Source of the DNA: a virus
Reading direction: 5' to 3' (one strand)
Virus record (IMG/VR): IMGVR_UViG_3300048930_001394
Coordinates: 1-36,326 of that record
DNA: 36,326 nt
The notes beneath the pieces are model-generated. The model saw only the letters and a list, made by a program, of their open reading frames with translations, was not told the origin of the DNA and made no database searches. Position numbers and translations under genes: made by a program. The stretch's first letter is position 1; every line of letters begins with the position of its first letter. This document shows positions 20,497 through 33,625 of this stretch, in pieces.

Positions 20497-22132
20497 TCTC
20501 GGCGTCAACCTCTGCACGACCGCCAAGGTCGGCCGCCATCATCGCATCGGCCAGGATTGCCGCCAGCGTCCCGGCATCGATCTCCGGCAGCCCGACCTTG
20601 AGCATTTCGGCGAACTCGTCGAAGGAGGAGGCTGCGGCCAGCATCGCCTCGATCTTGCTCAGCATCGCCTCCATGCCCGGCGCTGCCTCGGTCGTCAGAC
20701 GATCCGTGATCACCTCGGTCGGAGCGGGAGGCGATAGGAGCCCCGTGGAGGCCCCTTCCGACTGCAGGGCCTCCGTCCCACGGACTTCGGCCTTACCCCC
20801 TTTAAAAAACGCTCCTACCCCCTTTAACGAACGCGTTCCGTTCGAGGGGGGCGGCTCAGGTGCCGTCTGCGGCCGCGCGTGGAGCGTTTCCTCGTCCGGA
20901 GCGGGGTCCGAAAGCCCGTATTTCGCGCGCATCTCCTGCATGCTGACCCGCATGCCGAGGGGGACGAGCTGGACGACCGCGTCGGTCAGCTGCTTGAGGT
21001 CCTCGGTATCCGGGCGGGCGATGACGAGACGGGGATAGCCCGTCCGCGGGTTGGCAGGCGGACCATACTCAAGATCCATCCAGGGCCGGATCAGGTCCCG
21101 GTTGATGATGGCGGCAAGCGCCCGCGCATCAGCCCGCTCGATATCCTCCTGGACCTGCCGATGTTCCTTGCCCGACCCAAGGCCCCCGGTGACGGCATCT
21201 GTGGTGGCGGTCTGACCGAGAACTGCCTTCGAGATCTGCTGGTCGAGCCAATCCGCCCGCTTCAGGTAGAGGTCGGACGAGGCCCCGACATTGGCAGTCT
21301 CCACGAACTCGATCTGCATGCTTTCGGGGATGATCGCCGCGCAGTCGCCCGCGATGTTCGACACCGCCCGGAACAGGGTGGCCCGATCCTCCTTCGACGC
21401 GTTCGGGCCGTACTTGCCCAGCCGCAGCGGCTGACCGAAGGTCTGGGTGAAGATTGCCCAGTCGCGCTGGGTATAGGCCTTGAACATCCAGCCCCAGGCG
21501 GCGATCCGCGCGATCCCCGACCGCATTGGCAGGCCCGACTTGGCCGACATGCGCGCGAAGATGAACTTGAAGGGGTCAAGCGGAACTTCCGATCCGGCGG
21601 CCTCAAGTCGGCGCGGCGTGGAGAGGTCCCGCCGATCAAAGCGGAACCAGCGCGGGTCGCGCCGTTCGAGGCGTTCGGGCCACCAGTCGCCGGCCGAGGT
21701 GTCCCAGATGATTTCGGTGAAGCTGTAGCCCTTCCCGATGGCGTCGAGCATGTCGAAGAGCTCGTCCTGCAACTCGTCGCGCTTCAGCCAGGCCCGGATC
21801 AGGTCGGCCTTGGCCGCGTCCTCGGGAGCATCGCTCGCGGCCTCGACCGTGATCTCGAGCTGCGCGACCGAGCGGCGGCGGGTGCCGAGGACGCCGATGT
21901 AATGCGGATCCCGTTCCTCGATCGCTTCGGCGAGGTCGAGGTAATCGACAGGGTCACCCTCGTCGGCCGCGCGCAGGATGGTTGCCAGCCGGGAGGGGTT
22001 GAGACCGTCGGCCGGATAGCCCGCGATCGGCGAGCGGACGCCGGAGAGCGTCGGCCCGGCCACCTCGGCCGTCAGGATGTCGTACTGGACGGGATTGCCC
22101 CACCGGTCCAGCAGTTGCGGTTTTCTCGCCAT
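20489..22132 (-). CDS. Portal protein (Mu gp29-like, DUF935), 547 aa
   Basis: DUF935 portal. It opens ARKPQLLDRWGNPVQYDIL and includes AIEERDPHYIGVLGTRRRSV and the WDTSAGDWWPERLERRDPRWF block diagnostic of the family. The long C-terminal region is low complexity (proline and charged residues). The portal ring is the DNA entry and exit channel of the head. Start taken at ATG at 22132 sharing TGATG with the terminase stop; a GTG one codon upstream is possible. Its end overlaps the F-like gene by eight bases. Confidence 0.9.
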   Translation of the reverse strand: MARKPQLLDRWGNPVQYDILTAEVAGPTLSGVRSPIAGYPADGLNPSRLATILRAADEGDPVDYLDLAEAIEERDPHYIGVLGTRRRSVAQLEITVEAASDAPEDAAKADLIRAWLKRDELQDELFDMLDAIGKGYSFTEIIWDTSAGDWWPERLERRDPRWFRFDRRDLSTPRRLEAAGSEVPLDPFKFIFARMSAKSGLPMRSGIARIAAWGWMFKAYTQRDWAIFTQTFGQPLRLGKYGPNASKEDRATLFRAVSNIAGDCAAIIPESMQIEFVETANVGASSDLYLKRADWLDQQISKAVLGQTATTDAVTGGLGSGKEHRQVQEDIERADARALAAIINRDLIRPWMDLEYGPPANPRTGYPRLVIARPDTEDLKQLTDAVVQLVPLGMRVSMQEMRAKYGLSDPAPDEETLHARPQTAPEPPPSNGTRSLKGVGAFFKGGKAEVRGTEALQSEGASTGLLSPPAPTEVITDRLTTEAAPGMEAMLSKIEAMLAAASSFDEFAEMLKVGLPEIDAGTLAAILADAMMAADLGGRAEVDAENG

Positions 22133-23616
22133 CACACATGTCCCCTGATCCGCGCGCCGAGCGGCTGGCGCAGCCAGTCGCCGTCTTCGCTGCCGTCGAA
22201 GTCATCCGGCCGGTCGCGCCATCCCCCGGGGCCCGCGCCCCGCGAGACCGCCGTGTAGGCGTATTCCGTCACGCCGAGGCTCGCGGCTGATATGGCCAGC
22301 GCCCCGGCCCAGAAGCGGTCGGCGTGGCCGTCGCTGTCGGTGTCGGCGATGAGCCGGCGTGTCCCCGTGACACCCACCTGACTCTTGATCGAATGCAGGT
22401 CCGACCTGAGCGCCGGGTCCCCGGCCGGGATGCGCGTCTTGCGGTCCTGCATCGATTCCTTGAGCGTCGTGGCCATGTCGAGCTTGGCGGCCGGCGTGAA
22501 GAGGATGCCTTCGACCCGCGTGCTGCCATGCCGCAGCTTGGCATCTTCCACCGGCTTCTCGCCCATGCCGGTCTGGTCCATCCGGAGCCGCACGACGCGG
22601 TACCGCTTCATCACGTCGTCGAGCAGGCGGTCCTGCTCGGCAAAGCTGATCCGGCGTTTCGCGATGATCTCGCGGGTGACGAGAACATCACCGACGAGTT
22701 CCACGACCCAGATCACGAAGAGGTCGTTCCGCGCGGCGATGTCGACGCCCACGAAGCAGAGGCCACCGGCATAGAGGTCAGGGTGCCCGGCCGTCTCCGA
22801 TTCGCAGGCCGAGATCAGGTCGTAATCGAGCCAGGCGCTGGCCTCGTCGAGCCAGGCCAGCTCGAACTCCTGTGCCCAGGCGTCCTGGTCGGCCATGCCA
22901 GAGCGCAACTCGTCGATGTTGACGTCCAGTCCCTGGCGGACCGCCTCGTAGATATCGACGTGGTGCTTGGACCAGCCGTTGTCCTGGGTGGTCATCAGCT
23001 CGTAGAACTTGTTCCCCTTGCCGTTCGGGGTCGAGATGACGCGGATCTTGTGACCGCCCCGCGCGGCGACAGGGAAGGCCGAACCCCAGATGCGGCGGCT
23101 GTCGGCATGGAAGGCGAACTCGTCGAGTAGCAGGTTGCCGCCAAAGCCTCGCGCCGAATCCGGGCTGGCCGAAAGAGCCACCACGCGGCTACCGCCCGGA
23201 AAATGCACCTCCTGCGTCTTGTAGCGCGCGTCCGGCACCTCGATCATGAAGGTTCGGTCGCCCTGGCGGACCTCCTTCACATGCGCCGGCACGTGGAACT
23301 CGTCTTCGGTGAAGATGGGTTTCGGGCGGTTTGAAAGGCCCTTCAAGACGGCGTAATAGGCCCGCGTCATCGGCTTGAGCGCGTCTTCCATCGCCTCCTT
23401 GGCGGTGGCCTCCGACCGCGACAGGATCGTCCAGCGCACCTTGCGCTTCTCGATCTCGGCCTTCGTGCAGTCGGCCACGATCTCCCCGTTCGCGCCGAAG
23501 GTCTTGCCCCCGCGCCGGGTGAACATGCCGATCTTGAACCGGCTCTGATCCTCGATCCATGCCCGCTGGTAGGGCAGGAACCGGATGATGGGGTTATCAG
23601 GGACAGAGGTGCTCAC
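22132..23616 (-). CDS. Terminase large subunit (Mu gp28-like), 494 aa
   Basis: DNA packaging motor. The ATPase domain has a Walker A variant TRRGGKTF at residues 33-40 and Walker B NLLLDEFAF at 161-169. The RNase H-like nuclease domain shows the acidic residues D292 (FVGVDIAARNDL), D347 (RMDQTG) and D433 (DGHADRF). Length is normal. It starts at GTG, overlapping the upstream stop as GTGA, with GGAGG upstream. It packages phage DNA by headful cutting after transposition. Here it is separated from the likely small subunit by an island of small genes. Confidence 0.95.
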   Translation of the reverse strand: MSTSVPDNPIIRFLPYQRAWIEDQSRFKIGMFTRRGGKTFGANGEIVADCTKAEIEKRKVRWTILSRSEATAKEAMEDALKPMTRAYYAVLKGLSNRPKPIFTEDEFHVPAHVKEVRQGDRTFMIEVPDARYKTQEVHFPGGSRVVALSASPDSARGFGGNLLLDEFAFHADSRRIWGSAFPVAARGGHKIRVISTPNGKGNKFYELMTTQDNGWSKHHVDIYEAVRQGLDVNIDELRSGMADQDAWAQEFELAWLDEASAWLDYDLISACESETAGHPDLYAGGLCFVGVDIAARNDLFVIWVVELVGDVLVTREIIAKRRISFAEQDRLLDDVMKRYRVVRLRMDQTGMGEKPVEDAKLRHGSTRVEGILFTPAAKLDMATTLKESMQDRKTRIPAGDPALRSDLHSIKSQVGVTGTRRLIADTDSDGHADRFWAGALAISAASLGVTEYAYTAVSRGAGPGGWRDRPDDFDGSEDGDWLRQPLGARIRGHV

Positions 23617-24296
23617 CCGCCACCTCCGATCGCCTTGGGTCCGTCCCTGCCCGCCATGCCGTGCGCCAGCTGAGGCTTGCCCCCGGCTGACCAGCCGAGG
23701 TTCTGGACGTGCCCGAGTTCCTTGCGGTGGGAGGCAAGCTTCTTGATCGGTACGGTGTCCGGGAAGAAACGGTTTAGCGCATTCTGTGCGGCCGACCGCG
23801 CCGCGGGTGACATGGACGGTCGGAAGAGTTCACTCAACCGCCAGATAAGCCGGAACACCATGCCCTTGGTGAAGTCCTCAACCGCCGCGCGTTTGCTGCT
23901 TGCCGTGCGTCGGTTCGTGTAGACGCGGGTCTTCTTGAAACCCGCCACCTCCGCGTCGATCGCGCGGTTGAGCACGGTGTAGAGGTAGACCGCGACCTCC
24001 GGTCCCGGCGATACACCCACAAACGTCAGAGCGCTTGATTTGCCGATCCAGTCCCGCACCACGGCTGTGTTCGTGAAGTCGGCGAGGCGCGACCAGAGCG
24101 GATCCCGCGCGCCGTTGCCGCGCGACTGTACCCGCACCGACTCCTTGCCGAACAAGACCTCCTCTTCGGTCAGCCCGTACTCCGCCATCAGCGCGGCCGC
24201 TTTTTCCGCCGCGGCCAGCGCTTCGGCTTCTGTGCACCCCGCACGGCTGGTCATCTTCAGGAGGGCCGCGATCTTGCGGCGGACGGCGTCGGTCAT
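23613..24296 (-). CDS. DUF2786 domain protein, 227 aa
   Basis: The first 45 residues (starting TDAVRRKIAALLKMTSRAGC with a following AEAEAA-type helix and AEYGLTEEEVL) match the DUF2786 domain. The rest resembles the extended DUF2786/DUF7168 proteins, with a Ser/Arg-rich basic region (KKTRVYTNRRTASSKRAAVE), often found in phages and plasmids. Function is unknown. It is coupled to the large terminase by GTGA overlap. The C terminus is Gly-rich and disordered. Confidence 0.8.
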   Translation of the reverse strand: MTDAVRRKIAALLKMTSRAGCTEAEALAAAEKAAALMAEYGLTEEEVLFGKESVRVQSRGNGARDPLWSRLADFTNTAVVRDWIGKSSALTFVGVSPGPEVAVYLYTVLNRAIDAEVAGFKKTRVYTNRRTASSKRAAVEDFTKGMVFRLIWRLSELFRPSMSPAARSAAQNALNRFFPDTVPIKKLASHRKELGHVQNLGWSAGGKPQLAHGMAGRDGPKAIGGGG

Positions 24297-24490
24297 AGGG
24301 CAACCCAAAGAAATACGATGCCAAGAAGGCAGGCCGCGGCTGCCAGGGCGAACGCCCGTTGCGCAAGGGGGTTCGCTGCCGGGAGCAGACCACGTGGTGT
24401 GCTTCGCCTTGCCCGATTGCGACGATAGGCCTGCAATTCGCGCTCCCGTTGCCCAAAAGCAGAAAGCCGTTGGCTCGATTTTCGCGGCAT
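24293..24490 (-). CDS. Small membrane protein, 65 aa
   Basis: The ATG shares TGATG with the upstream zinc-ribbon gene and has GGAGGA upstream. The stop overlaps the next start (ATGA). Residues 1-40 are strongly basic, and residues 47-65 form one hydrophobic segment (ALAAAACLLGIVFLWVAL) reaching the C terminus. This predicts a tail-anchored, single-pass inner membrane protein with its basic part in the cytoplasm. No family recognised. Confidence 0.7.
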   Translation of the reverse strand: MPRKSSQRLSAFGQRERELQAYRRNRARRSTPRGLLPAANPLAQRAFALAAAACLLGIVFLWVAL

Positions 24491-24702
24491 CAGCCGATCC
24501 TCCGCGGGTCACCACGCATGGCCGCCTCAAGACGGGAGAGGCGTGCCTCGATCCGGTCGAAGCGGGCGTTTGCGGACTCCGGCGTCTGAGCGACAGGTCG
24601 AAGTCCGCCATGCAGCGCAGGGTTCGAGGTCAAGACCCGGCACCTGTCACAAGGCACGTACCCATTCTCGAACCGCTCACAGTCAGGACAGGGGTTCGAC
24701 AT
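24490..24702 (-). CDS. Small zinc-ribbon protein, 70 aa
   Basis: Residues 1-31 contain two cysteine pairs (CPDC at 5-8 and CDRC at 28-31), a typical zinc ribbon. A C-terminal helix of coiled-coil character follows (ARFDRIEARLSRLEAAMRG). The start is supported by GGGAGG and overlaps the upstream gene by about 20 bases. This ribosome-site and start region is nearly identical to that of the upstream neighbour. Likely nucleic-acid or protein binding. Function unknown. Confidence 0.72.
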   Translation of the reverse strand: MSNPCPDCERFENGYVPCDRCRVLTSNPALHGGLRPVAQTPESANARFDRIEARLSRLEAAMRGDPRRIG

Positions 24703-24994
24703 GTGACCTCCCAGTACCTTGGACAGCAGCCCGCCGGAGATCCTCCAGTGTCTTGAGTCCACGCGACAGGGACCGCTCGATTGCGCTGTCCTCCTGGCGG
24801 CGGATGAAGACCTGATTGTGAAGCCTCTTCTGCAGGCCGTAGTACGTGCGACCATCGATCCACTGGCCGACGGCCATTCGGCTGATCAACACGGCCGTAT
24901 CTCGACAGACTTTGGCCAGGAAGCCATCGCGGCGTTCAAGATTGCGGGCCCATGCCGACAGGTCGTTTGCGACTTCTTCTGGGGTGGCCATCAT
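24683..24994 (-). CDS. Hypothetical helical protein, 103 aa
   Basis: Highly helical and charged, starting MATPEEVANDLSAWARNLE after a double ATG. It contains VGQWIDGRTYYGLQKRLHNQ and RQEDSAIERSLSRGLKTLEDL. I recognise no family. The start uses ATGATG overlapping the stop of the DUF6527-like gene, with GGGAGG about five bases upstream. It lies in the small-gene island between the terminase subunits. Confidence 0.7.
   Translation of the reverse strand: MMATPEEVANDLSAWARNLERRDGFLAKVCRDTAVLISRMAVGQWIDGRTYYGLQKRLHNQVFIRRQEDSAIERSLSRGLKTLEDLRRAAVQGTGRSHVEPLS
24700..24718 (-). repeat. Repeated RBS-start cassette, copy 1
   Basis: The coding-strand sequence GGTACTGGGAGGTCACATG spans the ribosome site and ATG of the zinc-ribbon gene. 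It matches 18 of 19 bases of 24992-25010, which forms the ribosome site and start of the neighbouring gene. Confidence 0.6.
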
Positions 24995-25284
24995 GCGACC
25001 TCCCAGTACCCGTTGCGCAGCCAGCCGTGCCAATGCCCGACGTGATGGACAGAGGGGTCGAGCGTCGGCTCTGTCCGAGATCCGTTCCAGCGCCAGGACG
25101 GCCGGTCGCCGCCCGGCTTGACCCCGTCACCAATGAGGATCCCGCCCTCCGTCCCGCAACCACAGGGGCAGAAGTAGCGGAACTCGAAGAGCCCGGGATG
25201 ATCGCGGCCGACGAGGATGAAACTGCCCGGGTGCCGGTTGCGGGCCCACGTCTCCCGGTCGGGATAATAGAGGGCGCGGATCAC
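24991..25284 (-). CDS. DUF6527-like protein, 97 aa
   Basis: Contains a cysteine cluster FCPCGCGTEGG (three Cys), followed by PSWRWNGSRTEPTLDPSVHH and GHWHGWL, the conserved pattern of DUF6527 proteins common in phages. The Cys/His residues suggest metal binding. Translation starts at GTG overlapping the upstream TGA (GTGA). An ATG reading further upstream gives only arginine-rich low-complexity residues, so I reject it. Function is unknown. Confidence 0.75.
   Translation of the reverse strand: MIRALYYPDRETWARNRHPGSFILVGRDHPGLFEFRYFCPCGCGTEGGILIGDGVKPGGDRPSWRWNGSRTEPTLDPSVHHVGHWHGWLRNGYWEVA
24992..25010 (-). repeat. Repeated RBS-start cassette, copy 2
   Basis: GGTACTGGGAGGTCGCATG, one mismatch from copy 1. 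It encodes the last codons of the DUF6527-like gene and supplies the ribosome site and start for the next gene. Confidence 0.6.
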
Positions 25285-25481
25285 TGGAGGGTCACCTCGC
25301 CCCGGGCCGTCAGGACCGCATGATCCCAGCCTTGATGCCAATCGGGCGGTTCGTCGGTCTCCTCGCCCGCCAGGAAGTCGGGACCGCCGCATGACAGGAT
25401 TTCGTCGGTTGTCAGTAGGTCGGCGACGTTGCATGTCACCCGTGCGGCCGCCATTCCGCGGCAAAAATCATCCCGGCTCAT
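25281..25481 (-). CDS. Hypothetical protein, 66 aa
   Basis: Begins SRDDFCRGMAAARVTCNVAD with the ATG sharing TGATG with the small terminase gene, and ends overlapping the GTG of the DUF6527-like gene. It is acidic with three cysteines and a tryptophan-rich stretch (DWHQGWDHAV). No family recognised. Coupling on both sides is the main evidence for expression. Confidence 0.65.
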   Translation of the reverse strand: MSRDDFCRGMAAARVTCNVADLLTTDEILSCGGPDFLAGEETDEPPDWHQGWDHAVLTARGEVTLQ

Positions 25482-26020
25482 CACGCGAACCCCATGATTT
25501 CGCGGGCGCGCTGGCGGAAGTCTTCGTCGATCTCGCCGGCGGCAGCGGCGGCGTCGAGCTTCGCGGCCTGCGCTTTGCGGTCCTTCTCCTGCATCGCTTG
25601 GGCGATGCCTGACGACGTCATGACGTCTTTCATCATGCGCGCGAGGAAGTGGAGGTTCTGCGGGCTGATCTCGGCGCCCTCTTTCGCGACCTCGGCCTGC
25701 ATGACCTTGAAGGCGAGCGTGGTCAGCATCTGGAAGAGCACGTTCTGGCGTTGCGCCTGATCGTCCATGCCCATCTCGCCCAACCATTCCTTGGCCCAGT
25801 CCGACGCCTGTTCCTGCAGCCTCACGAACTCGCGGTATTCCGAACCGAAGTCGTGGATCGCCGACTTGCGGATGCGCAGGTCAAGCCCGGCCTCTTCCAG
25901 GCGGAAGTTCAGGGCGTCGGCCAGCTCCTCGTACTGTGCGAAGCCACGGGCGCGCAGTTCCTCCTGCAACCAGGCGCGCAGCTCGGGGGGTAATAGGTCG
26001 ATCTTGCGGGGCGGGGGCAT
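25481..26020 (-). CDS. DUF3486 protein (Mu gp27-like), likely terminase small subunit, 179 aa
   Basis: Opens with PPPRKIDLLPPELRAWLQEE and continues with RKSAIHDFGSEYREFV, the DUF3486 signature of Mu gp27-type proteins. Such proteins combine an HTH-like N-terminal DNA-recognition part with long helices and are regarded as the terminase small subunit. The start at 26020 follows the previous stop by one base. The last third is a charged helix (KDRKAQAAKLDAAAAAGEI). It normally lies next to the large subunit but here is separated by six small genes. Confidence 0.85.
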   Translation of the reverse strand: MPPPRKIDLLPPELRAWLQEELRARGFAQYEELADALNFRLEEAGLDLRIRKSAIHDFGSEYREFVRLQEQASDWAKEWLGEMGMDDQAQRQNVLFQMLTTLAFKVMQAEVAKEGAEISPQNLHFLARMMKDVMTSSGIAQAMQEKDRKAQAAKLDAAAAAGEIDEDFRQRAREIMGFA

Positions 26021-26021
26021 C

Positions 26022-26327
26022 TCAGCGCCTCGGGCTCGGCCGCTGGATATCCGGGTGCGTCGCACGGCCGAGGGCGATATCCACCCCGCGGGCGGTGGCC
26101 GTGGCGACCTGGAAGTCCGGATTGCCGGCAAGCGTCACGAAGCCCTGTTCCGCCAGCCAGGCGAGCTCGGTCGTTGTCTGGTCGCGCGACGTGTCGATGC
26201 CGATGCTGTCGCTGTTGAGTACGTCGGTCAGGATCGACACATTCGAGGTGAAGGTCGGGCTGGCTTCGAGAAAGCGCAGGATCGCGAGGCGGCGATGCCT
26301 CTGCAGGGTTGCGGCGTAGTCGGTCAC
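26022..26327 (-). CDS. gp26-like (VpaChn25_0724 family) protein, 101 aa
   Basis: The pattern TDYAATLQRHRRLAILRFLE, then SILTDVLNS and TELAWLAEQGFVTL, matches the VpaChn25_0724 family, which occupies the Mu gp26 position. The helix-turn-helix-like arrangement with LAEQGFVTL suggests a winged-helix fold. It starts at GTG with GGAGG upstream and overlaps the gp25-like stop as GTGA. The role in Mu-like phages is not established. Confidence 0.78.
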   Translation of the reverse strand: MTDYAATLQRHRRLAILRFLEASPTFTSNVSILTDVLNSDSIGIDTSRDQTTTELAWLAEQGFVTLAGNPDFQVATATARGVDIALGRATHPDIQRPSPRR

Positions 26328-26668
26328 TTCCGGCCTCCGTCGAGCAGATGGTCTTCATGGCGGGTCACGATGTTTTCCAGGCGCAGCATGATTTTGGCGT
26401 TGCCCTCCATCACTGCCGACATCGCCTTGAGCTCCCCCTTCATCGCAGCGAGTTCTAGCTTCAGGTCGTGGATGTGATCCTTCGCCGGCAGTCCGGTCAC
26501 GGTCTGCTCCAGCGACTGGAGGCGTGTGTCGTGGCGATCAAGACGCGCGACGACCGACCCGATGCGCTCGTTCGTGGCTTTGCGGCCCATCTGGACCCAA
26601 CCGACAACGGCAAGAACGATGGTCACAATGACGCCCACCGTCACTGTCGGGTCGAAGATGAGGTTCAT
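26324..26668 (-). CDS. DUF2730 protein (Mu gp25-like), 114 aa
   Basis: One membrane helix near the N terminus (residues about 8-25, TVGVIVTIVLAVVGW). A charged coiled coil follows with regular leucines (RLDRHDTRLQSLEQTVTGL and LKLELAAMKGELKAMSAV). This is the layout of DUF2730. It lies between the holin candidate and the gp26-like gene, within or next to the lysis cluster, and could act in host lysis. The start ATG overlaps the previous stop (ATGA). Confidence 0.8.
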   Translation of the reverse strand: MNLIFDPTVTVGVIVTIVLAVVGWVQMGRKATNERIGSVVARLDRHDTRLQSLEQTVTGLPAKDHIHDLKLELAAMKGELKAMSAVMEGNAKIMLRLENIVTRHEDHLLDGGRK

Positions 26669-27060
26669 GCTTCCGCCTCGTCCTGACCTTGGCGTGTGGA
26701 CACTTGGCCCCCCACCTCGCGCAATTTGGCGCGTGCGAGGTCACGAAGCACATCGGGACTGGGCCCAAGCCTTGCGATCGACTCCGGAGAGCTGCGGAAG
26801 GCGTAGTCGAGGATGCCCTCGATCCGGGCATCCTCTTCGGCAATCCCCTCGGTTGCCAGCACCCCGGAGGTCAGCGCGCGATGCATCGCCTCGCGCCAGA
26901 TCTTCTCGGCCTGGACCCCCAGATGCTGCCGGATCAGGTCGGGCACGCCCGCGAAGGCGCGCTTCACCATCGACGCCATAATGCCGAAGAGGAGGACAAG
27001 AAGCCCCGCCAGCGCCTCGGTCAGGCGCGGCTCAAGGGCCGTCAGGAGGGAGTCGAACAT
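26665..27060 (-). CDS. Membrane protein, holin candidate, 131 aa
   Basis: The N terminus carries one hydrophobic segment of about 20 residues (EALAGLLVLLFGIMASMVK), followed by an amphipathic helical body of about 90 residues. This resembles phage holins of the LLH type, which place one membrane span before a long helical tail. It lies two genes downstream of the endolysin. ATG is preceded by AAAGGTC. Another lysis or membrane role is possible. Confidence 0.6.
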   Translation of the reverse strand: MFDSLLTALEPRLTEALAGLLVLLFGIMASMVKRAFAGVPDLIRQHLGVQAEKIWREAMHRALTSGVLATEGIAEEDARIEGILDYAFRSSPESIARLGPSPDVLRDLARAKLREVGGQVSTRQGQDEAEA

Positions 27061-27074
27061 GGATCAGACCTTTG

Positions 27075-27452
27075 TCAGAGAGCCGCGCGGACGGCGGCAT
27101 CCTTGGATTCGAGAAGCTTACGGAGCGCCACGCTCCGCTCCGGTCCGCGTGAAAGGACCAGGCACAGGGTGTTGGCGAGCTGAGCGAAAGGACGCGAGAC
27201 CTCGCGCAGGTTGTCAGGCAGATGCGCGAAGGCGAAGTATCGCAGGATCGGCTCTTCCCCGGCGAAGTCGATGGCCGGGGCGGCCCCCGGCTGCAGTTCC
27301 TCGACGAAGAGGCTCTGTGTGTCGTGGATGTGGATCGTCTGCTCGTGGCCCGGCTCCACCATGATGGGCGCAGTGGCGGCGCGGCCGACCGGGTGGACGG
27401 TCGTGATCCGGCAGGGCTTCTGGTGGGCCTGGACGAAGACAGTGGCGGTCAT
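27075..27452 (-). CDS. Beta-domain protein with candidate Acb2/Tad1-like hairpin, 125 aa
   Basis: Residues 1-65 form a beta-rich N-terminal part (VFVQAHQKPCRITTVHPVG and VEPGHEQTIHIHDTQSLFVE). Residues about 72-125 are two helices: YFAFAHLPDNLREVSRPFAQ, then RGPERSVALRKLLESKDAA. This layout, with the conserved 'PER-x-x-ALRKL-x-x-x-K/A-x-A' helix, resembles the helical hairpin of Acb2/Tad1 proteins, which bind cyclic nucleotide signals and blunt CBASS or Thoeris immunity. The N-terminal addition is unlike canonical Acb2 (about 95 residues) and may mark a structural or other function. It sits in the late operon between endolysin and holin candidate. I treat anti-defence as a hypothesis. Confidence 0.6.
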   Translation of the reverse strand: MTATVFVQAHQKPCRITTVHPVGRAATAPIMVEPGHEQTIHIHDTQSLFVEELQPGAAPAIDFAGEEPILRYFAFAHLPDNLREVSRPFAQLANTLCLVLSRGPERSVALRKLLESKDAAVRAAL

Positions 27453-27463
27453 AGGCAAACCTT

Positions 27464-28087
27464 TCAGGCGGCGTTGAGCCAGACGGGGACGTTGAAGCCG
27501 GGGCAGGCCTTGGCCGCCCACTCATTGTGGCCAGAGATCCGACGGATCGTCGTGCGCGTGCTGACAGCGGAAATGAGGCGCCGGAGCCGGGCATCCTGCG
27601 CAGTGGTGAAGTTCGACAGAAACCGGTCGGTCGAAGCCGATCCATGTCCGCCGAAAAGGCACACGTGGATCACGCCGCGATTGTGGCCCTCGACACCCGC
27701 CCCGATCTCGGTCTCGGCGCGACCCGGCCAGACCGCTCCATCTCGGTCGATCAGCCAATGATACCCGACTGTCCGCCAGCCCCGCGCCTTGTGCCAGCGG
27801 GTCACCTCAGCGACCTTGTCTGCCAGCGGCGCTCCCGCCATCCAGTCGGGCAGCGTGTCGGCGCAATGGACGACGATCTCGTCGACCAGGTAGCGGGCCG
27901 ATCCCTGATAGAGCCTGGGCGTCCCAGCGGGGAAGGTTACCGGCTCCGACGCGAAAACGATCGGCTCGCCCCGGTTGGCAATGCAAGCCTGCATCGCCTT
28001 TTCCGTCCGCGGGCCCCAGCGGCCGTCGATGGGGCCGACATCATGGCGCAGGCCCTGAAGGCCCTGCTGGACCAGTTTCAAGCTCAT
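27464..28087 (-). CDS. Endolysin, N-acetylmuramoyl-L-alanine amidase, 207 aa
   Basis: Residues 1-38 resemble a peptidoglycan-binding repeat (VQQGLQGLRHDVGPIDGRWG). The main domain (about 65-205) is the amidase_2/T7-lysozyme fold. VVHCADT gives zinc ligand H74, GYHWLID contains Y109/H110, and GHNEWAAKACPGF gives H187, K193 and C195. It cleaves the bond between muramic acid and the stem peptide and releases progeny from the cell. No signal peptide is visible, so it should need a holin, a candidate for which lies two genes later. It is the first gene of the lysis operon and follows the 17-bp operator-like repeat. ATG has GAGGT upstream. Confidence 0.92.
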   Translation of the reverse strand: MSLKLVQQGLQGLRHDVGPIDGRWGPRTEKAMQACIANRGEPIVFASEPVTFPAGTPRLYQGSARYLVDEIVVHCADTLPDWMAGAPLADKVAEVTRWHKARGWRTVGYHWLIDRDGAVWPGRAETEIGAGVEGHNRGVIHVCLFGGHGSASTDRFLSNFTTAQDARLRRLISAVSTRTTIRRISGHNEWAAKACPGFNVPVWLNAA

Positions 28088-28163
28088 GATCGGTACCTCA
28101 AGCAGCGGAGCCAGCGACGCGGCTGGATGCGCTCAGGGTAGGTCGCGCGCCCCCCGTAAAACC

Positions 28164-28180
28164 ACGCACAACGGTTTGCG
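28164..28180 (-). promoter_or_regulatory. 17-bp operator-like repeat upstream of the lysis operon
   Basis: Same sequence (CGCAAACCGTTGTGCGT on the coding strand) as at the head operon. It lies within the 104-base gap between the Mor/C-like gene and the endolysin gene, about 77 bases before the endolysin start. In Mu the C protein activates late promoters from dyad sites just upstream. These two copies would be the corresponding sites here. Confidence 0.65.
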
Positions 28181-28191
28181 CGGGAAGGCGG

Positions 28192-28581
28192 CTAGAACTC
28201 GAAAAGGTCTGGCTGGGAGGGAGGCGGCCGCTTCTGTCGGTCCACTTCCAGATAGGAGCGAACAGAGACGTTGCTGACGCGCACCTTGCGCGCGATCTCG
28301 TTCACGGACAAGCCCCGTGCGTGAAAGACCTGCGCCATCCAGGGCTTTGCAAGTGGATGCCGACGGGGGAGTGCCATCGCGGCCTCGGCGAGCGCGGCCG
28401 CGCCATCCGCGCCGATCACCGCCTCGATGTCCGCCCGAAGTTTCGGGTCGCGTGCGACATGCCGCTCCGATCCGCCAAAGGCGAGCAGGAACTCGATCGC
28501 TCCGTCGAGCCCGAGGATGCGGACATAGGGCTCGACGTGCGCCGGCGGTCGGGGGACGAGATGGCCCGGGTCGATGGTCAC
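28192..28581 (-). CDS. Mor/C-like middle/late gene activator, 129 aa
   Basis: The order of features follows the Mu Mor/C family. A first helical segment with ILGLDGAIEFLLAFGGSERHV carries the conserved GG turn, and ADIEAVIGADGAAAL follows. A C-terminal helix-turn-helix is GLSVNEIARKVRVSNVSVRS at about 90-109. These dimers bind dyads next to phage promoters and recruit sigma-70 RNA polymerase. Start is GTG overlapping the MT-A70 stop (GTGA), with GGAGG upstream. It is the last gene of the early operon, and the 17-bp repeat lies 11 bases behind its stop, which fits a switch from early to late expression. The tail (PPPSQPDLFEF) is disordered. Confidence 0.78.
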   Translation of the reverse strand: MTIDPGHLVPRPPAHVEPYVRILGLDGAIEFLLAFGGSERHVARDPKLRADIEAVIGADGAAALAEAAMALPRRHPLAKPWMAQVFHARGLSVNEIARKVRVSNVSVRSYLEVDRQKRPPPSQPDLFEF

Positions 28582-29141
28582 CCGAACCTCCCCACCTGGT
28601 CGCCCCAGACATCGCGGCCCGGCCATTCCTCACGGGCGAACAGCTCACAGGCCCAAACATCGGGGAGAAGCGCATCGACCATCGCGCGCGCCTCAGGCGG
28701 CTTGCGGGAGTGTTCGCGCCGACCCGCATCGATCAGGTTGCGGACGCTCCTTGACCGGATCGCCGGCGCACCGATCGTACCGATGAGAAAGGGTTCCGTC
28801 GCCGACCTCAGGAGGTACCCGGTCCCGAACGCGGTCTTGCCGCCTGGTGTGCGCTTCACCCAGGCGCCGCCCGTCTTGAATGTGAACCCCCACGCGGACA
28901 TGACCTCCATCGCCAGGGGCAGATGCGGCCAGGTGGTCCAGAGGAAGAGTAGGCAATCGGGGGCGGCAAGCTGGTCGACCGGGAGGGCCTTGATCGCATC
29001 GGGCGTCATCGTCGCGTAGTGCGCCTCAGGGCTTTTTGCGTGGCCCTTTGCGGACCGCATGTCATAGGCCCACGGCGGATCAGCGAGGATTGCGCCATAC
29101 TTGAAGGGGCTCAGACCCTCGAAAGGCCACGGCGCGATCAC
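28578..29141 (-). CDS. MT-A70-type adenine methyltransferase, 187 aa
   Basis: The catalytic DPPWAYD motif (residues 21-27), followed by the LLFLWTTWPHLP block and GTGYLLRSATEPFLI, identifies an MT-A70 family N6-adenine methyltransferase. It is compact (187 residues), as usual for phage versions. It would modify adenines in phage or host DNA. The start is GTG overlapping the upstream stop. Together with Dam at the left end, the phage carries two unrelated adenine methylases with different expression times, early and late. Confidence 0.9.
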   Translation of the reverse strand: MIAPWPFEGLSPFKYGAILADPPWAYDMRSAKGHAKSPEAHYATMTPDAIKALPVDQLAAPDCLLFLWTTWPHLPLAMEVMSAWGFTFKTGGAWVKRTPGGKTAFGTGYLLRSATEPFLIGTIGAPAIRSRSVRNLIDAGRREHSRKPPEARAMVDALLPDVWACELFAREEWPGRDVWGDQVGRFG

Positions 29142-29419
29142 GACCGCCGCTCCGCCCGAACGCGTCCGGTGCGCTTGTCGGGATGGTTGACCTTGAGAAC
29201 GGTCACCACGGTCTGACCTTCCAGCCGGAAGGCATAGCCGTCGATCACCACACCGCTCGCGCAGTCGACCTCTCCATCAGCAATGCGCGGGTCCTGCAGA
29301 ACCTTGTCCACACGGGCGGCGATCTCACGCCGCGCTTGCTCGATATCGATACCCTTGATCCGCTCCAGATAGCGGAGGACAGCATGGTCGGTGACGTACT
29401 GGACGCGGGGTTTCATCAT
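29138..29419 (-). CDS. Hypothetical protein, 93 aa
   Basis: Begins MKPRVQYVTDHAVLRYLERI after a double ATG that overlaps the GemA stop, with GGAG upstream. It contains a helix-strand order (HAVLRYLERIKGIDIEQARR, then strands VVIDGYAFRLEG and TVVTVLKVN) that recalls compact RelE/BrnT-like folds. I see no catalytic residues to support a toxin call. Unknown function; frequent in alphaproteobacterial phages as far as I can judge. Confidence 0.7.
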   Translation of the reverse strand: MMKPRVQYVTDHAVLRYLERIKGIDIEQARREIAARVDKVLQDPRIADGEVDCASGVVIDGYAFRLEGQTVVTVLKVNHPDKRTGRVRAERRS

Positions 29420-29862
29420 GAGCGCTCCGTGGGGATGCCCTCGCGGGCGCACCAGTCCTTCAGCGCGCGGATCACGTCGTTGATCTGCCCCGCCTCGCGG
29501 AGCGCATCGACGTCGATCGGCACCGATTGCCACTTTCCTTCGAACCGGGACCGGATGAAGGCATTGAGCCCCGCCCGTCCCGGCTTCTTCACCTTCCCGG
29601 CCTTCGACAGGAGACCCCAGAGGACATGGGCGTAGCGAAGGTCAGCCCGGGGGGCCTCGCGGCGCGGTTTCCGTGACGGTCGATGCTGGAACCCGTCCGC
29701 CTTCAGGCGGGCGAGCAGCGCCTCCAGTTCGGCGTCGGTCATGTCCGACATCGAAGCCTTGCCCGTCACCTGCAGCTGCAGGTCATGGCGGGCATCAGTG
29801 TCCAGGCCGAGATCGCGGCAAGCCGCGTGAATGGTCCGTTGAAGGGCGCGTGAAGCGGTCAT
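29416..29862 (-). CDS. GemA/gp16-like protein (DUF1018), 148 aa
   Basis: The DUF1018 pattern is visible: AACRDLGLDTDARHDLQLQV near the N terminus, MSDMTDAELEALLARLK, and FIRSRFEGKWQSVPIDVDAL with a final helix. In Mu the gp16/GemA product is reported to influence host gene expression and DNA supercoiling. The start I choose overlaps the stop of a 33-codon gene (ATGA). The longer reading upstream is not supported by a ribosome site. Confidence 0.82.
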   Translation of the reverse strand: MTASRALQRTIHAACRDLGLDTDARHDLQLQVTGKASMSDMTDAELEALLARLKADGFQHRPSRKPRREAPRADLRYAHVLWGLLSKAGKVKKPGRAGLNAFIRSRFEGKWQSVPIDVDALREAGQINDVIRALKDWCAREGIPTERS

Positions 29863-29960
29863 GGCAACAGCACTTTCGCGAGGATGAGCCACATTCCGAC
29901 ACCAAGGATGGCACCGGGAAAGACCCACCAGCCCGAGGGAAGGGGGCTGCTCCAACGCAT
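29859..29960 (-). CDS. 33-residue membrane miniprotein
   Basis: A complete frame of 33 codons opens at ATG with GGAGGG eight bases upstream. The ATG shares TGATG with the previous gene, and the stop overlaps the GemA start (ATGA). The product (starts MRWSSPLPSGWWVFPGAILG) has one hydrophobic segment covering about residues 10-32 (WWVFPGAILGVGMWLILAKV). Its shortness would make gene finders miss it. No family recognised; a membrane-acting early phage peptide is the natural guess. Confidence 0.7.
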   Translation of the reverse strand: MRWSSPLPSGWWVFPGAILGVGMWLILAKVLLP

Positions 29961-30238
29961 CAGTTCCGCCCTCCTTTGGCAGCAATTATGGCTTCAGTAA
30001 TTGCCTCAACTGTTGGCTGCTGTGTCCGCGCAACGCCCTTCCACAGCGCTTCGAGGAACTGCTCACCCAGTCTCTCCTCGGCCTCTGTAAGCGCCAAGCA
30101 GACTCCCAAAGCATCGCCCGCTGCCGCGGCGATCTCCATGTTGGAATGCGACTTGCGGAGTTCAGAGAGGAAGAGATGGATTTCGCCAGCCAGATCCGAC
30201 AATTCGAGACGGGCGGCGATGACCGTGGTGTGGGTCAT
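29960..30238 (-). CDS. Hypothetical helical protein, 92 aa
   Basis: The start ATG overlaps the previous stop (ATGA). The protein is nearly all helical and acidic (LAGEIHLFLSELRKSHSNME, then TEAEERLGEQFLEALWKGVA). No family or motif recognised. The higher AT content of this stretch compared with the structural genes suggests a different origin. Confidence 0.65.
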   Translation of the reverse strand: MTHTTVIAARLELSDLAGEIHLFLSELRKSHSNMEIAAAAGDALGVCLALTEAEERLGEQFLEALWKGVARTQQPTVEAITEAIIAAKGGRN

Positions 30239-30687
30239 TGTGATACCCCCGTATGTCCAGAGGCCCACTTCCTGCCTGCTCGCTCAAGTCCGACCGCCCT
30301 TCGAATCCGGCTGAATCCGTGGGTCTGCGGCGCGGCTGCGTCAGCATTGGCCTCGAAGACTTCCTGCGCGAGCTCCCAGATCGGCGCGATCCATTCATCG
30401 ACACGCGTCCGATACTGATCTCGCCTCCACAAAGGGTCCTGCAGCGCGTTGATCGCGACCAGATGCGCAGTCGCAATTTTGACCGAGGCAGCAGTTGTCG
30501 GATCGGTAATCGCAGCACCAACAATGCGGTCGATCTGCGCCCTAGATGGCATAGGCTCGTCCGTGATGGCCCAACTCGTACGCGCCTTAAGGGCGGGCGT
30601 TGGCACTAGACCAAAAGGTTCAACGCGGAAGTCAGGGTGATAGGGCAGCTCGATAAACTCTGGAAAGACAGGCACGATCCACTTCAT
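30235..30687 (-). CDS. Hypothetical protein, 150 aa
   Basis: The start shares TGATG with the GapR stop. It opens KWIVPVFPEFIELPYHPDF and contains a helical central section (VKIATAHLVAINALQDPLW) and a basic C terminus. I recognise no family. It sits in the coupled early operon, so it is expressed early. Its GC content is slightly lower than that of neighbours. Confidence 0.65.
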   Translation of the reverse strand: MKWIVPVFPEFIELPYHPDFRVEPFGLVPTPALKARTSWAITDEPMPSRAQIDRIVGAAITDPTTAASVKIATAHLVAINALQDPLWRRDQYRTRVDEWIAPIWELAQEVFEANADAAAPQTHGFSRIRRAVGLERAGRKWASGHTGVSQ

Positions 30688-30941
30688 CAGCCCATCCCCA
30701 GCGCGGCTTTGTACATGTCCAGCACCGCCTCTTCCTCGGCGATGTCGTCGCGGTCGCGCTTGCGCAGTGCGATCACCTTGCGCAGGATCTTGGTGTCGTA
30801 GCCGCGCCCCTTGGCCTCGGCCATGACCTCTTTCATCTGATCCTTGATGTCCCGGTCCTCGGCTTCGAGCTGCTCGTAGCGCTCAATGAAGGCACGCAGT
30901 TCCGCCCCCGCGTCCGGGTTGTCGAGGCTCGTGTCGGCCAT
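30687..30941 (-). CDS. GapR-like nucleoid protein (DUF2312), 84 aa
   Basis: A complete DUF2312/GapR protein. [20 protein letters not shown] opens the first helix, followed by [20 protein letters not shown], then RKRDRDD and the acidic helix [15 protein letters not shown]. In Caulobacter GapR is an essential, A/T-preferring protein of about the same length that binds overtwisted DNA ahead of replication and helps gyrase and topoisomerase IV. The phage copy is full length. It is translated with its early neighbours (TGATG overlap, GGGAGGG upstream). Why a transposable phage encodes it is discussed in the findings. Confidence 0.9.
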
Positions 30942-31201
30942 CACGCAACCCTCCCTGCGGCGTCCAGAGCATCGTCGCGCGCCTCGACGGCCTCCAGCGC
31001 ATCGGCGAGCCGCCGCAGCCAGGGCGCGGTCGCACGATGCACCTCTGACCCGTTGAACCGGTCGGAGGCTGCCTGGATGATCTCTTCCGAAGCGGCGTCG
31101 GTTGCGAGGAAGGACAGAAGGGGCATGACGTCGCCCTGATTGGCCCTCTTGCGGAGCTGGGCACCGATATCGGTGGCTGAGAGTTCAACCTGCATGGTCA
31201 T
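30941..31201 (-). CDS. Hypothetical protein, 86 aa
   Basis: Short helical protein ([55 protein letters not shown]). The ATG is coupled to the DUF3164 stop (ATGA), with GAGGGC upstream. No family recognised. It lies between DUF3164 and GapR in the early operon. Confidence 0.65.
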
Positions 31202-31854
31202 GCCCTCGCCAGATCGATGGAAATGGCCTGCCAGGGCGCATCGAAGCGTTCGCGCCGGTAGCAGCGCACATAGGTCTTGCTGCCCACGATCCGCATCGCA
31301 TCGCGGATTGCCTGCATGGCGCGCTTCCAGCGTTCGTCCTCGATGTCGAGGCGGAGCAGCATGAAGATCTCCGACCGATTGATCTGCCCGGCCTTGTCGG
31401 TGTTGAAGGCGCGGGTCACGATCGCCCGGATTTCAGCGCGGGCGTCAGCCGCCCATTCGTTGAGGCATTCATCGACAAGGCCCTTGGCAATCTGCAGCTC
31501 GGGCCCGAAATCGACGTGATCGGCGACCTGCACCTGCACCTTGAAAAGACCGTCGACGGACTGGAGCGTCTTGTTGCCCTTCTGCCCGCCGACGGTGGTG
31601 CTGTACTCTTGCGCGAGGAGCGCCTCGAAGGACCCGATGTCCTCGAAGGTATGCTCCTTGAAGCGTGCCACCTGAGCGGAAAGCGCGGCGGCAAAGCCGA
31701 TGATCTTCCGGACCGTCTCGTCCTCGAGAAGGTGCTGCGGCTTGATCAGGTCGACGGGGGTCAGGCCCCCCTTGCCGTCGCCCATGAAGACCTTGTCGCC
31801 GACGGTGGTCTTGCCGTCGGGGACGAAGTCCTCGGGATTGGTCTGCATCGTCAT
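31198..31854 (-). CDS. DUF3164 protein, 218 aa
   Basis: DUF3164 family, common in Mu-like phages in the early operon. It opens with MTMQTNPEDFVPDGKT, continues with the core HTFEDIGSFEALLAQEYSTT, GGQKGNKTLQSVDGLFKVQV, and ends with RWKRAMQAIRDAMRIVGSKT then the YVRCYRRE strand. I choose the ATG that overlaps the previous stop. The longer upstream frame is Arg/Pro-rich without coding character. Biochemical function is unknown; some relatives are mis-annotated as sulfate transporters. Confidence 0.85.
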   Translation of the reverse strand: MTMQTNPEDFVPDGKTTVGDKVFMGDGKGGLTPVDLIKPQHLLEDETVRKIIGFAAALSAQVARFKEHTFEDIGSFEALLAQEYSTTVGGQKGNKTLQSVDGLFKVQVQVADHVDFGPELQIAKGLVDECLNEWAADARAEIRAIVTRAFNTDKAGQINRSEIFMLLRLDIEDERWKRAMQAIRDAMRIVGSKTYVRCYRRERFDAPWQAISIDLARA

Positions 31855-32150
31855 GACTGGTCTCCGTTTCTGTAGGCTTCGGGAAGGACCCGCCGGTGCG
31901 GCGGGGGCAGGACGCCCGACAGGACGAGCATCCCCGCCATCGCGGCGATCTCCTCCATCGAGCAAAGGGTGGTGCCACGTTCGCCAAGGAGATCGACCTT
32001 AGCCACGCCCGAGGCGGCGAGGCGGATCATGTCCTCCTCGGACCAGCGGGTGGACTTCGTGCCACGGCGTGCGGCAAGGACCGTGTCGATCGCGGCCATC
32101 AGTTCGGCCTCGGAGGGAACACGGACAGCGGGTTTGGCGTGGTCAGCCAT
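31851..32150 (-). CDS. Hypothetical protein, 99 aa
   Basis: ATG at 32150 chosen for its GGAGGG upstream; it overlaps the previous gene by eight bases. The protein starts ADHAKPAVRVPSEAELMAAI and contains KSTRWSEEDMIRLAASGV and a hydrophobic helix (EEIAAMAGMLVLSGVLPPPH). No family assigned. It lies among the early DNA-binding genes. Confidence 0.65.
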   Translation of the reverse strand: MADHAKPAVRVPSEAELMAAIDTVLAARRGTKSTRWSEEDMIRLAASGVAKVDLLGERGTTLCSMEEIAAMAGMLVLSGVLPPPHRRVLPEAYRNGDQS

Positions 32151-32685
32151 GTGCGGCCCTCCGGTCGTCAGCATCATCCAGGACGGCATCGACAAGGTTG
32201 TCTTCGGCGACTTTGGTGAGGATGGACCGCGTGAGGTCGTCGAGCGTCATGCCACGACCCGCCGCGACGGGTCGCAGCCGCTCTGCCAGATCGCGGGACA
32301 GGTAACTCGTCCACGCTTTCTCGGCTGAGAAGCCGCCAGGCTTGAAACGCCCGCTAAAGGTGCCTTCATGCCGCGCCTTGTTGAGGTAGTGATAGACGGT
32401 GGCGACTGCACATCCGAGGTGGACCGCGATCTCTCGCGGGGGAATGCCCTCGCGGGCGAGCCGGATCGTCTCGTCCTCCCGCCTCACGCGCGGCCCGATG
32501 GTCACCCCGGTAGGGATGGGGCGTCGTGCGGGTGGCAGGAGACTGCGCTGCCGGGCCTTTGACAGGACCCGACCGACACTGTCACGGGACAGGCCGAGTT
32601 CGTCGGCGATCTCCCCGCGCTTCTTGCCAGACAGGGCGAGATCGATGACGTGCTGATGCCGGCGTGCATAGCGGTTGGCGTTCAC
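32143..32685 (-). CDS. Two-HTH DNA-binding protein, 180 aa
   Basis: Two helix-turn-helix units are visible, at about residues 20-45 (KKRGEIADELGLSRDSVGRV) and 75-105 (REIAVHLGCAVATVYHYLNK), both of the sigma-4/resolvase-like type. A C-terminal helical part follows (SRDLAERLRPVAAGRGM). The start is GTG with GAGGAG upstream, overlapping the previous stop as GTGA. It is a candidate early regulator, or a factor that binds phage ends or transposition intermediates. Target unknown. Confidence 0.75.
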   Translation of the reverse strand: MNANRYARRHQHVIDLALSGKKRGEIADELGLSRDSVGRVLSKARQRSLLPPARRPIPTGVTIGPRVRREDETIRLAREGIPPREIAVHLGCAVATVYHYLNKARHEGTFSGRFKPGGFSAEKAWTSYLSRDLAERLRPVAAGRGMTLDDLTRSILTKVAEDNLVDAVLDDADDRRAAHG

Positions 32686-33053
32686 TTCAACTCCTCCTTC
32701 GCCATGCGGGGGCAACGGTTGCATGCAATCCGCATCCGAACCCGCTCACTGGTTTCCGAGCTGTAGGTTCGGGCGAGGACCATCCAGTCGCGGCAGACCG
32801 CCGTCGAAATCTGCCCCCGGGCAGGACAGTTCAGCTTGGCCTGCATGAAGGTCCCGCGAACGAGGTCTTCAACAGCTGCGAGGTCGCCCTGGTACTTCTT
32901 GCGCAGCACGGTGGAGACGAGCGCGCCGGAGCGCCCGAGGCGCGCGGCAACCTTCGTCTGGCTGGCCGCTGTGCATTCTTCGGCGAGGCGAAGCACCCAG
33001 TCAGGGATCGCATCTCCCCATGCCTGCCGCGCCACTTCGACTGGCGCGCTCAT
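32682..33053 (-). CDS. Small HTH protein with cysteine cluster, 123 aa
   Basis: The first half carries an HTH (TKVAARLGRSGALVSTVLRK). The second half carries at least four cysteines (LNCPARGQIS, VCRDWM, ACNRCPRM) that could bind zinc or an iron-sulfur cluster. Start is ATG overlapping the previous stop (ATGA). It is part of a run of three DNA-binding-type genes behind MuB. I recognise it as a frequent Mu-phage early protein but know no assigned function. Confidence 0.7.
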   Translation of the reverse strand: MSAPVEVARQAWGDAIPDWVLRLAEECTAASQTKVAARLGRSGALVSTVLRKKYQGDLAAVEDLVRGTFMQAKLNCPARGQISTAVCRDWMVLARTYSSETSERVRMRIACNRCPRMAKEELK

Positions 33054-33625
33054 CGCCCGGCTCCCATGGTGAAGACCTCATGGGAGTTGGGGTCGAAGAT
33101 CTGCCGGGCGCGCTGGACCTGCGGTGCTCTCGGCCCGTTGTTGCGGACGAGGCGATACCGGGCGAGCTTGCCCTTCCTGCCTTCAGCCGCCTTGATCACG
33201 CGCAGGTAGCCGGCCGCGAAGAGATCCTTGCAGTAGGTCCGGGCGGTCCGCTCCTCGATCAGGATCGAAGCCGTCTGAACAAGCTCGGCCGCCGTGAACT
33301 CCTTGAGGATATACATCCCGCGCCAGAGCTGTTCCTTGACGGTGCCATTGACCGTGGGGCTCCCATCTTCACGCAGTCGGGGCGCCTCGATCCCGCAGTC
33401 CTTTTCGAGCCTCCACTCGAGAGCGGCGCCAGGAGCGGTCGGGACCGTCACGAGGAACCCCGCTGCCGTCAGCCCGCGGAGGTAACTCCGAGCGGTTTGG
33501 CGCGAACAGGATGCAGCGGTGGTGATTTCGCGGATGGTGAACGGCTTTCCATCCGGAAAGGCTCGGATGGCAGCCCACATCGCGTCCCTCACCGACGGCA
33601 CTTCATTGACGGGCTTGCGCGTCAT
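33050..33625 (-). CDS. Winged-helix-like protein, 191 aa
   Basis: Two winged-helix-like segments. The first is at about residues 12-60 (FTIREITTAASCSRQTARSY with LRGLTAAGFLVTV). The second is at about 95-150 (LKEFTAAELVQTASILIEER, TARTYCKDLFAAGYLRVI). A basic C terminus follows. The start ATG shares one base with the MuB stop (TGATG). This kind of tandem winged-helix protein recurs next to MuB in rhodobacterial transposable phages (as far as I recognise). It may help regulate the early operon or the transposition complex. Confidence 0.72.
   Translation of the reverse strand: MTRKPVNEVPSVRDAMWAAIRAFPDGKPFTIREITTAASCSRQTARSYLRGLTAAGFLVTVPTAPGAALEWRLEKDCGIEAPRLREDGSPTVNGTVKEQLWRGMYILKEFTAAELVQTASILIEERTARTYCKDLFAAGYLRVIKAAEGRKGKLARYRLVRNNGPRAPQVQRARQIFDPNSHEVFTMGAGR

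Follow-up and report, generated by a model that had tools for sequence, protein, structure and literature searches.

The DNA analysed here, called the window, is a viral entry of IMG/VR that is 36,326 bases long and shows a Mu-like layout. The initial annotation had placed a gene at 27075-27452 and left out its strand. We found a real gene at this position on the minus strand, which we call P0001. Its frame runs from 27452 down to 27075, from an ATG at 27452-27450 to a TGA at 27077-27075, and encodes 125 amino acids and the stop, with no internal stop; the plus-strand frame over 27075-27452 is interrupted by a stop. The ATG is preceded, at a distance of 7 nt, by a ribosome-binding site (GAAAGG, 27460-27465) that overlaps with the stop codon of the amidase gene upstream, and 14 nt separate the stop of P0001 from the start of the next gene. 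A longer version of 148 amino acids, starting at an upstream GTG, was rejected because the ATG is served by its own ribosome-binding site and the extension runs into the amidase gene.

P0001 is part of a tight late cassette, as expected from the late lysis operon proposed for it. The cassette is headed by a late transcriptional activator (28192-28626, minus strand; phrog_836, E = 2.8e-19), followed by an Amidase_2 endolysin (27464-28087, minus strand; Pfam E = 3.2e-12, phrog_822 E = 1.6e-46), P0001 itself, a phrog_17576 protein (26665-27060, minus strand) and DUF2730. The phrog_17576 product, which by eye has one hydrophobic N-terminal segment, is perhaps a lysis protein. Directly upstream of the late activator lies a gene for an MT-A70 family DNA methylase (28578-29141), which possibly shields the phage DNA from restriction. 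A second contig, IMGVR_UViG_3300048833_000217, shows 100% identity across the 12.2 kb compared (21078-33251 of the window) and therefore provides no independent evidence.

We modelled P0001 with AlphaFold2 as a single chain, using an alignment 43 sequences deep. The predicted protein is composed of two modules, both given here in minus-strand coordinates. The N-terminal beta module covers residues 1-62 (27267-27452) and contains five strands, at residues 2-8, 14-19, 30-32, 37-43 and 47-52; identical strands were obtained when the module was modelled alone (19 sequences, pLDDT 88). A poorly ordered linker connects it to the C-terminal hairpin domain, residues 66-125 (27078-27257). This domain starts with a short helix at residues 68-73 (27234-27251), ahead of hairpin helix 1 at residues 80-99 (27156-27215) and helix 2 at residues 104-124 (27081-27143), which according to the family alignments holds the conserved ERSVALRKLLESKDAAVRA motif. 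The block formed by the two hairpin helices has a pLDDT of 93-98. The beta-rich N-terminus and the C-terminal two-helix hairpin that the initial annotation had read from the sequence are thus both recovered by structure prediction. A Foldseek search against the PDB gave no significant match, and neither Acb2 nor Tad1 was among the matches listed. The top PDB matches, VHL and Ena2A, cover the beta module with a TM of about 0.6 for the isolated domain and E > 0.2, and we judged them non-specific. The viral matches were weak and included A0A411AWH0, an 'Acb2/Tad1 hairpin' protein (probability 0.99, E = 0.26, TM 0.68 by target).

The hairpin has relatives in many phages. Residues 65-125 of P0001 match phrog_1761 (E = 8.8e-24) and phrog_5120 (E = 3.6e-17), both with labels that carry no function. 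Through tblastn we found the hairpin in 317 phage records, usually at about 45-60% identity, with phages of Vibrio, Erwinia, Acinetobacter, Brevibacterium and Gordonia as the commonest carriers, and it also occurs in hundreds of IMG/VR contigs and in 25 records of a plasmid collection. Host genomes rarely contain it (2 out of 397 genomes of the family of Paracoccus). Most relatives are annotated as 'hypothetical protein'. The family consensus is PILxxFxYxHLPxxLQxVSxPFxxLAxxxxxxLPxxPERTVALRKLLESKDAAVRAAL, in which KLLESKDA looks more invariant than it is, having served as search seed. The literature searched contained no paper that mentions phrog_1761, phrog_5120, phrog_872 or PF24729 by name; as its coverage is partial, this absence is not proof of novelty.

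Most members of phrog_1761 and phrog_5120 consist of the hairpin alone, and apart from the identical contig mentioned above no second member of the hairpin family with a beta module of the P0001 type was found. The sister phage L167 keeps the gene order of activator, amidase, hairpin and phrog_17576. Its hairpin begins directly after the amidase, lacks the beta module and is 77% identical to that of P0001, a higher identity than those between the window and L167 for the amidase (66%), the phrog_17576 protein (36%) and the terminase (29%). The beta module is gained or lost as one unit, and the hairpin stands alone.

To relate P0001 to known proteins, we compared its hairpin with PF24729 (Acb2_Tad1_hairpin). 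The Acb2/Tad1 pattern claimed by the initial annotation could not be recovered from P0001 alone: searches against Pfam, NCBIfam and PDB sequences returned nothing useful, with no Pfam match at E <= 1. P0001 is therefore not a member of PF24729 by Pfam's own criterion, the curated cut-off being 27 bits, and the window genome holds no PF24729 match. Three of 30 relatives of P0001 matched PF24729 weakly (best E = 0.0073). Proteins of PF24729 proper include StellaBean gp101, a 'cyclic nucleotide sequestering protein' (59 bits), and T4 Vs.4 (71 bits). True PF24729 proteins match phrog_1454, T4 Vs.4 mainly phrog_717, and P0001-type proteins touch phrog_1454 near the hairpin turn (E of 0.08-0.24).

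The pattern did emerge between family profiles. A profile of 147 unique hairpins matched one of 69 PF24729-type sequences, both of them shallow (effective numbers of about 2.4 and 3.4), with an HH probability of 88.9%, a score of 31.8 over 34 columns and a single-comparison E of 2.4e-6, and the two were aligned with their hairpin turns in register. Of 100 column-shuffled controls, the highest reached a score of 18.5 and a probability of 12.4%, and the reversed profile scored 8.5. When the hairpin profile was compared with 16 families derived from the loci that were fetched, PF24729 was its sole non-self match (30.8 versus 12.2); this control is modest, as antisense frames account for several of the 16. 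The stretch common to the two groups, P.xxE[RK][ST]xAl.KLxE, covers the turn and helix 2. The hairpin family showed no direct similarity to a profile of four classical Acb2 sequences, PaP2 and T4 among them (probability 0.24%), whereas PF24729 aligns with the same four at 92.9%. When searched against the PDB, the hairpin family profile returned repetitive or unrelated helical matches only. The controlled profile comparison, together with the fusions described below, makes it likely that the hairpin of P0001 is homologous to that of Acb2 and Tad1, and its family is probably a distant branch of the Acb2/Tad1 hairpin clan.

Additional information came from the domains fused to these hairpins. Since beta-only and hairpin-only relatives were misaligned when MAFFT treated them jointly, the joint alignments were discarded and the two groups were aligned separately, as A5 and A6. 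The beta module, with the family motif MTTTVxVKANHGWPVxV...VHSxxDLxIHEVQP, is found at 22 IMG/VR loci, at most of them as the module alone and at some of them in the head-gene region. Its relatives in named phages are gp27 of EBPR siphovirus 2 and gp27 of RcKemmy, the latter beside a holin and an endolysin. A profile search with the beta module gave nothing in the 397 Paracoccus-family genomes, a weak result as only 15 candidates per genome were scored. In two distinct proteins the beta module precedes an Acb2-type hairpin: L346 (gene at 2013-2474, by eye just before a DUF1320-like head gene; PF24729 at 60.9 bits; fetched again as L361 and L368) and L383 (gene at 2501-2953; 55.8 bits). Both have Acb2 p26 as a weak PDB match, and L346 also Vs.4. 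The N-terminal module of P0001 is 39% identical to that of L346 (E = 2e-10) and groups with it in alignment A6. P0001 thus carries its divergent hairpin where L346 and L383 have an Acb2-type hairpin, after the beta module. In L379 and L380 the beta module is joined to a different C-terminal domain and is therefore not exclusive to hairpins.

A second partner of the hairpin is the 'YIGTK...SWSPK' domain (phrog_872/9467/32732), with the fuller motif YIGTK...GYxVVYEDGYxSWSPKxxFExAY. It is fused to the hairpin at four loci, in Vibrio phages 1.185.O, 1.183.O and 1.184.A and in L256 (4827-5171). Among 63 distinct proteins with this domain, which also occurs in loci of the range L264-L343, 25 have by motif a Tad2-type C-terminus, one of which was checked and matched PF11195 with 87 bits, and one, L271 (1198-1743), carries Tad1 (PF24729 28.6 bits; PDB Tad1 E = 8e-12). 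The SWSPK domain is possibly a general partner of phage sponges. Since two unrelated N-terminal partners are each common to the hairpin and to established sponges, these fusions are the strongest functional hint that we have.

We then looked at Y11, K26 and R67, which we take to be the ligand-contact residues of Acb2. In an alignment with PaP2 Acb2, these positions correspond in P0001 to F75, S86 and P104, and R85 corresponds to R122. The aromatic character of the first position is kept across the hairpin family, with either F or Y at F75. PF24729 relatives retain Y, R and R at the three contact positions. Like P0001, T4 Vs.4, a true Acb2, lacks R67 in this alignment. If the hairpin family binds nucleotides, as judged from these residues it would probably do so in another mode or bind another nucleotide.

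The comparison with known systems places P0001 close to several of them. Proteins of PF24729 (phrog_1454; StellaBean gp101) resemble it in length, in the two-helix hairpin, in the position of the turn, in the motif, in their scattered loci and in one N-terminal partner. Unlike them, P0001 falls below the Pfam cut-off, has (G/N)PE in place of SRE and RKLLESKDAAVRA in place of TKLEEAxMWANAAIAR. Its predicted helices at 68-73, 80-99 and 104-124 recall Acb2 (PaP2 p26, PDB 8h2j; T4 Vs.4, 7uq2), which is composed of one short N-terminal helix and a long antiparallel hairpin (PMC12043709), and the Acb2-type hairpins of L346 and L383 carry its type of beta module; however, there is no direct profile match to Acb2, and the equivalents of K26 and R67 are replaced. 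The architecture had been described as unusual, yet Tad1 itself has an N-terminal beta-sheet and, after it, two long helices (PMC12043709), and P0001, with predicted strands within residues 2-52 and then the hairpin, reproduces the layout of Tad1 (PDB 7uav, 8kbe and others; L271). What is unusual is that its beta module is of a non-Tad1 family, the one that groups with L346 and EBPR gp27, and P0001 has no Tad1 sequence match, in contrast to the E of 8e-12 of L271. The likeness to Tad2 (PF11195, DUF2829) is indirect, through the SWSPK partner present on relatives of the P0001 hairpin; the Tad2 fold is unrelated and Tad2 is no part of P0001.

The best single explanation of these data, to which we give even chances, is that P0001 acts as a sponge of nucleotide signals. 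P0001 would be a two-module accessory protein whose hairpin belongs to a branch not yet recognised by Pfam or by annotators. Starting from the gene, its modules and family, the predicted fold, the remote profile similarity and the shared fusion partners, we infer an oligomer in which the hairpins would pack together and form pockets between them. These pockets could sequester a nucleotide immune signal, either a cyclic oligonucleotide of CBASS or a product of the Thoeris type, and capture of the signal would inhibit the defence and let the infected cell survive until phage lysis. The beta module, present or absent at one locus in sister phages, would act as an exchangeable add-on and may stabilise the oligomer or complete the pocket. 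Counted against a sponge are the missing Pfam and PDB matches of P0001 itself, the lack of direct similarity between its family and classical Acb2, the replacement of K26 and R67, the shallowness of both profiles, and the absence of Acb2 and Tad1 from the Foldseek PDB matches listed. More tentatively, phrog_1761 and phrog_5120 might form a major, so far unrecognised branch within the Acb2/Tad1 sponges, with changed ligand contacts and perhaps another signal, equipped with swappable N-terminal modules that are also found on Acb2, Tad1 and Tad2.

The genomic position of the hairpin genes bears on a different reading, in which the Acb2/Tad1 hairpin fold does another job, for example as a lysis-cassette or late accessory protein that uses the conserved charged face of helix 2 (R111, E115, D118, R122) to bind a protein of the host or of the phage. 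Genes of the hairpin family repeatedly adjoin lysis genes, as in the window, L167, AGM16, phiNP and Vibrio phages 1.183.O and 1.184.A. The motif is also remarkably constant for an anti-defence gene, with about 45-60% identity over 58 amino acids across phages of unrelated hosts, and the presumed Acb2 ligand positions are lost. However, a role in lysis does not predict the hairpin genes that lie after the major capsid gene in Perlina and DumpsterDude, before the portal gene in martha or in early regions, and in Acinetobacter phage 133 the gene is near rIIA and gene 39. PF24729 genes are equally scattered, between lysin A and a membrane protein in Gordonia phage Jace, after the portal gene in Schomber and among replication genes in Scottie. 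The PF24729 sponges are also equally conserved in sequence, and the hairpin shares its fusion partners with sponges. We therefore consider another job for the fold possible and rather unlikely. The late placement of P0001, which had been raised as a point against an inhibitor, is no argument against a sponge because PF24729 genes are just as scattered, including the one in the lysis region of Jace.

Hairpins are common oligomerisation devices, and that of P0001 could be a mere handle for a beta module that does the work as a small binding or virion-associated domain, the link to sponges then being structural only. That the beta module occurs alone at the majority of its 22 loci, which in some cases lie in the head-gene region, fits such a role. 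In L167, however, the corresponding locus has kept the hairpin and lacks the beta module, the hairpin is the better conserved part, and most members of the family are hairpin only, which makes a mere handle improbable. Finally, convergence of two short helices with a similar helix-cap motif, to which the lack of a direct match to the family or to classical Acb2, the commonness of helical hairpins and the shallow profiles would lend some weight, is very improbable in view of a profile score far over those of shuffled, reversed and unrelated controls, a common stretch that spans the turn and helix 2, and two unrelated partner domains shared with sponges.

Should the hairpin family be a branch of the sponges, a hidden inhibitor would be present in many phages, and the altered contact residues would hint at a different nucleotide signal. 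The common N-terminal modules also suggest that sponges are built by phages out of exchangeable parts. The wider interest thus lies in a large unnamed hairpin family and its modular use, more than in the P0001 gene alone. According to PMC11722364, Acb1 and Acb2 are relatively rare among phage proteins.

Two further genes of the window are worth mentioning. A protein with DUF2786 and DUF7168 (23613-24503) lies directly ahead of the large terminase gene, a place where it was not detected in L167. The phage also encodes a GapR-like DNA-binding protein at 30687-30944 (PF10073, E = 1.1e-30).
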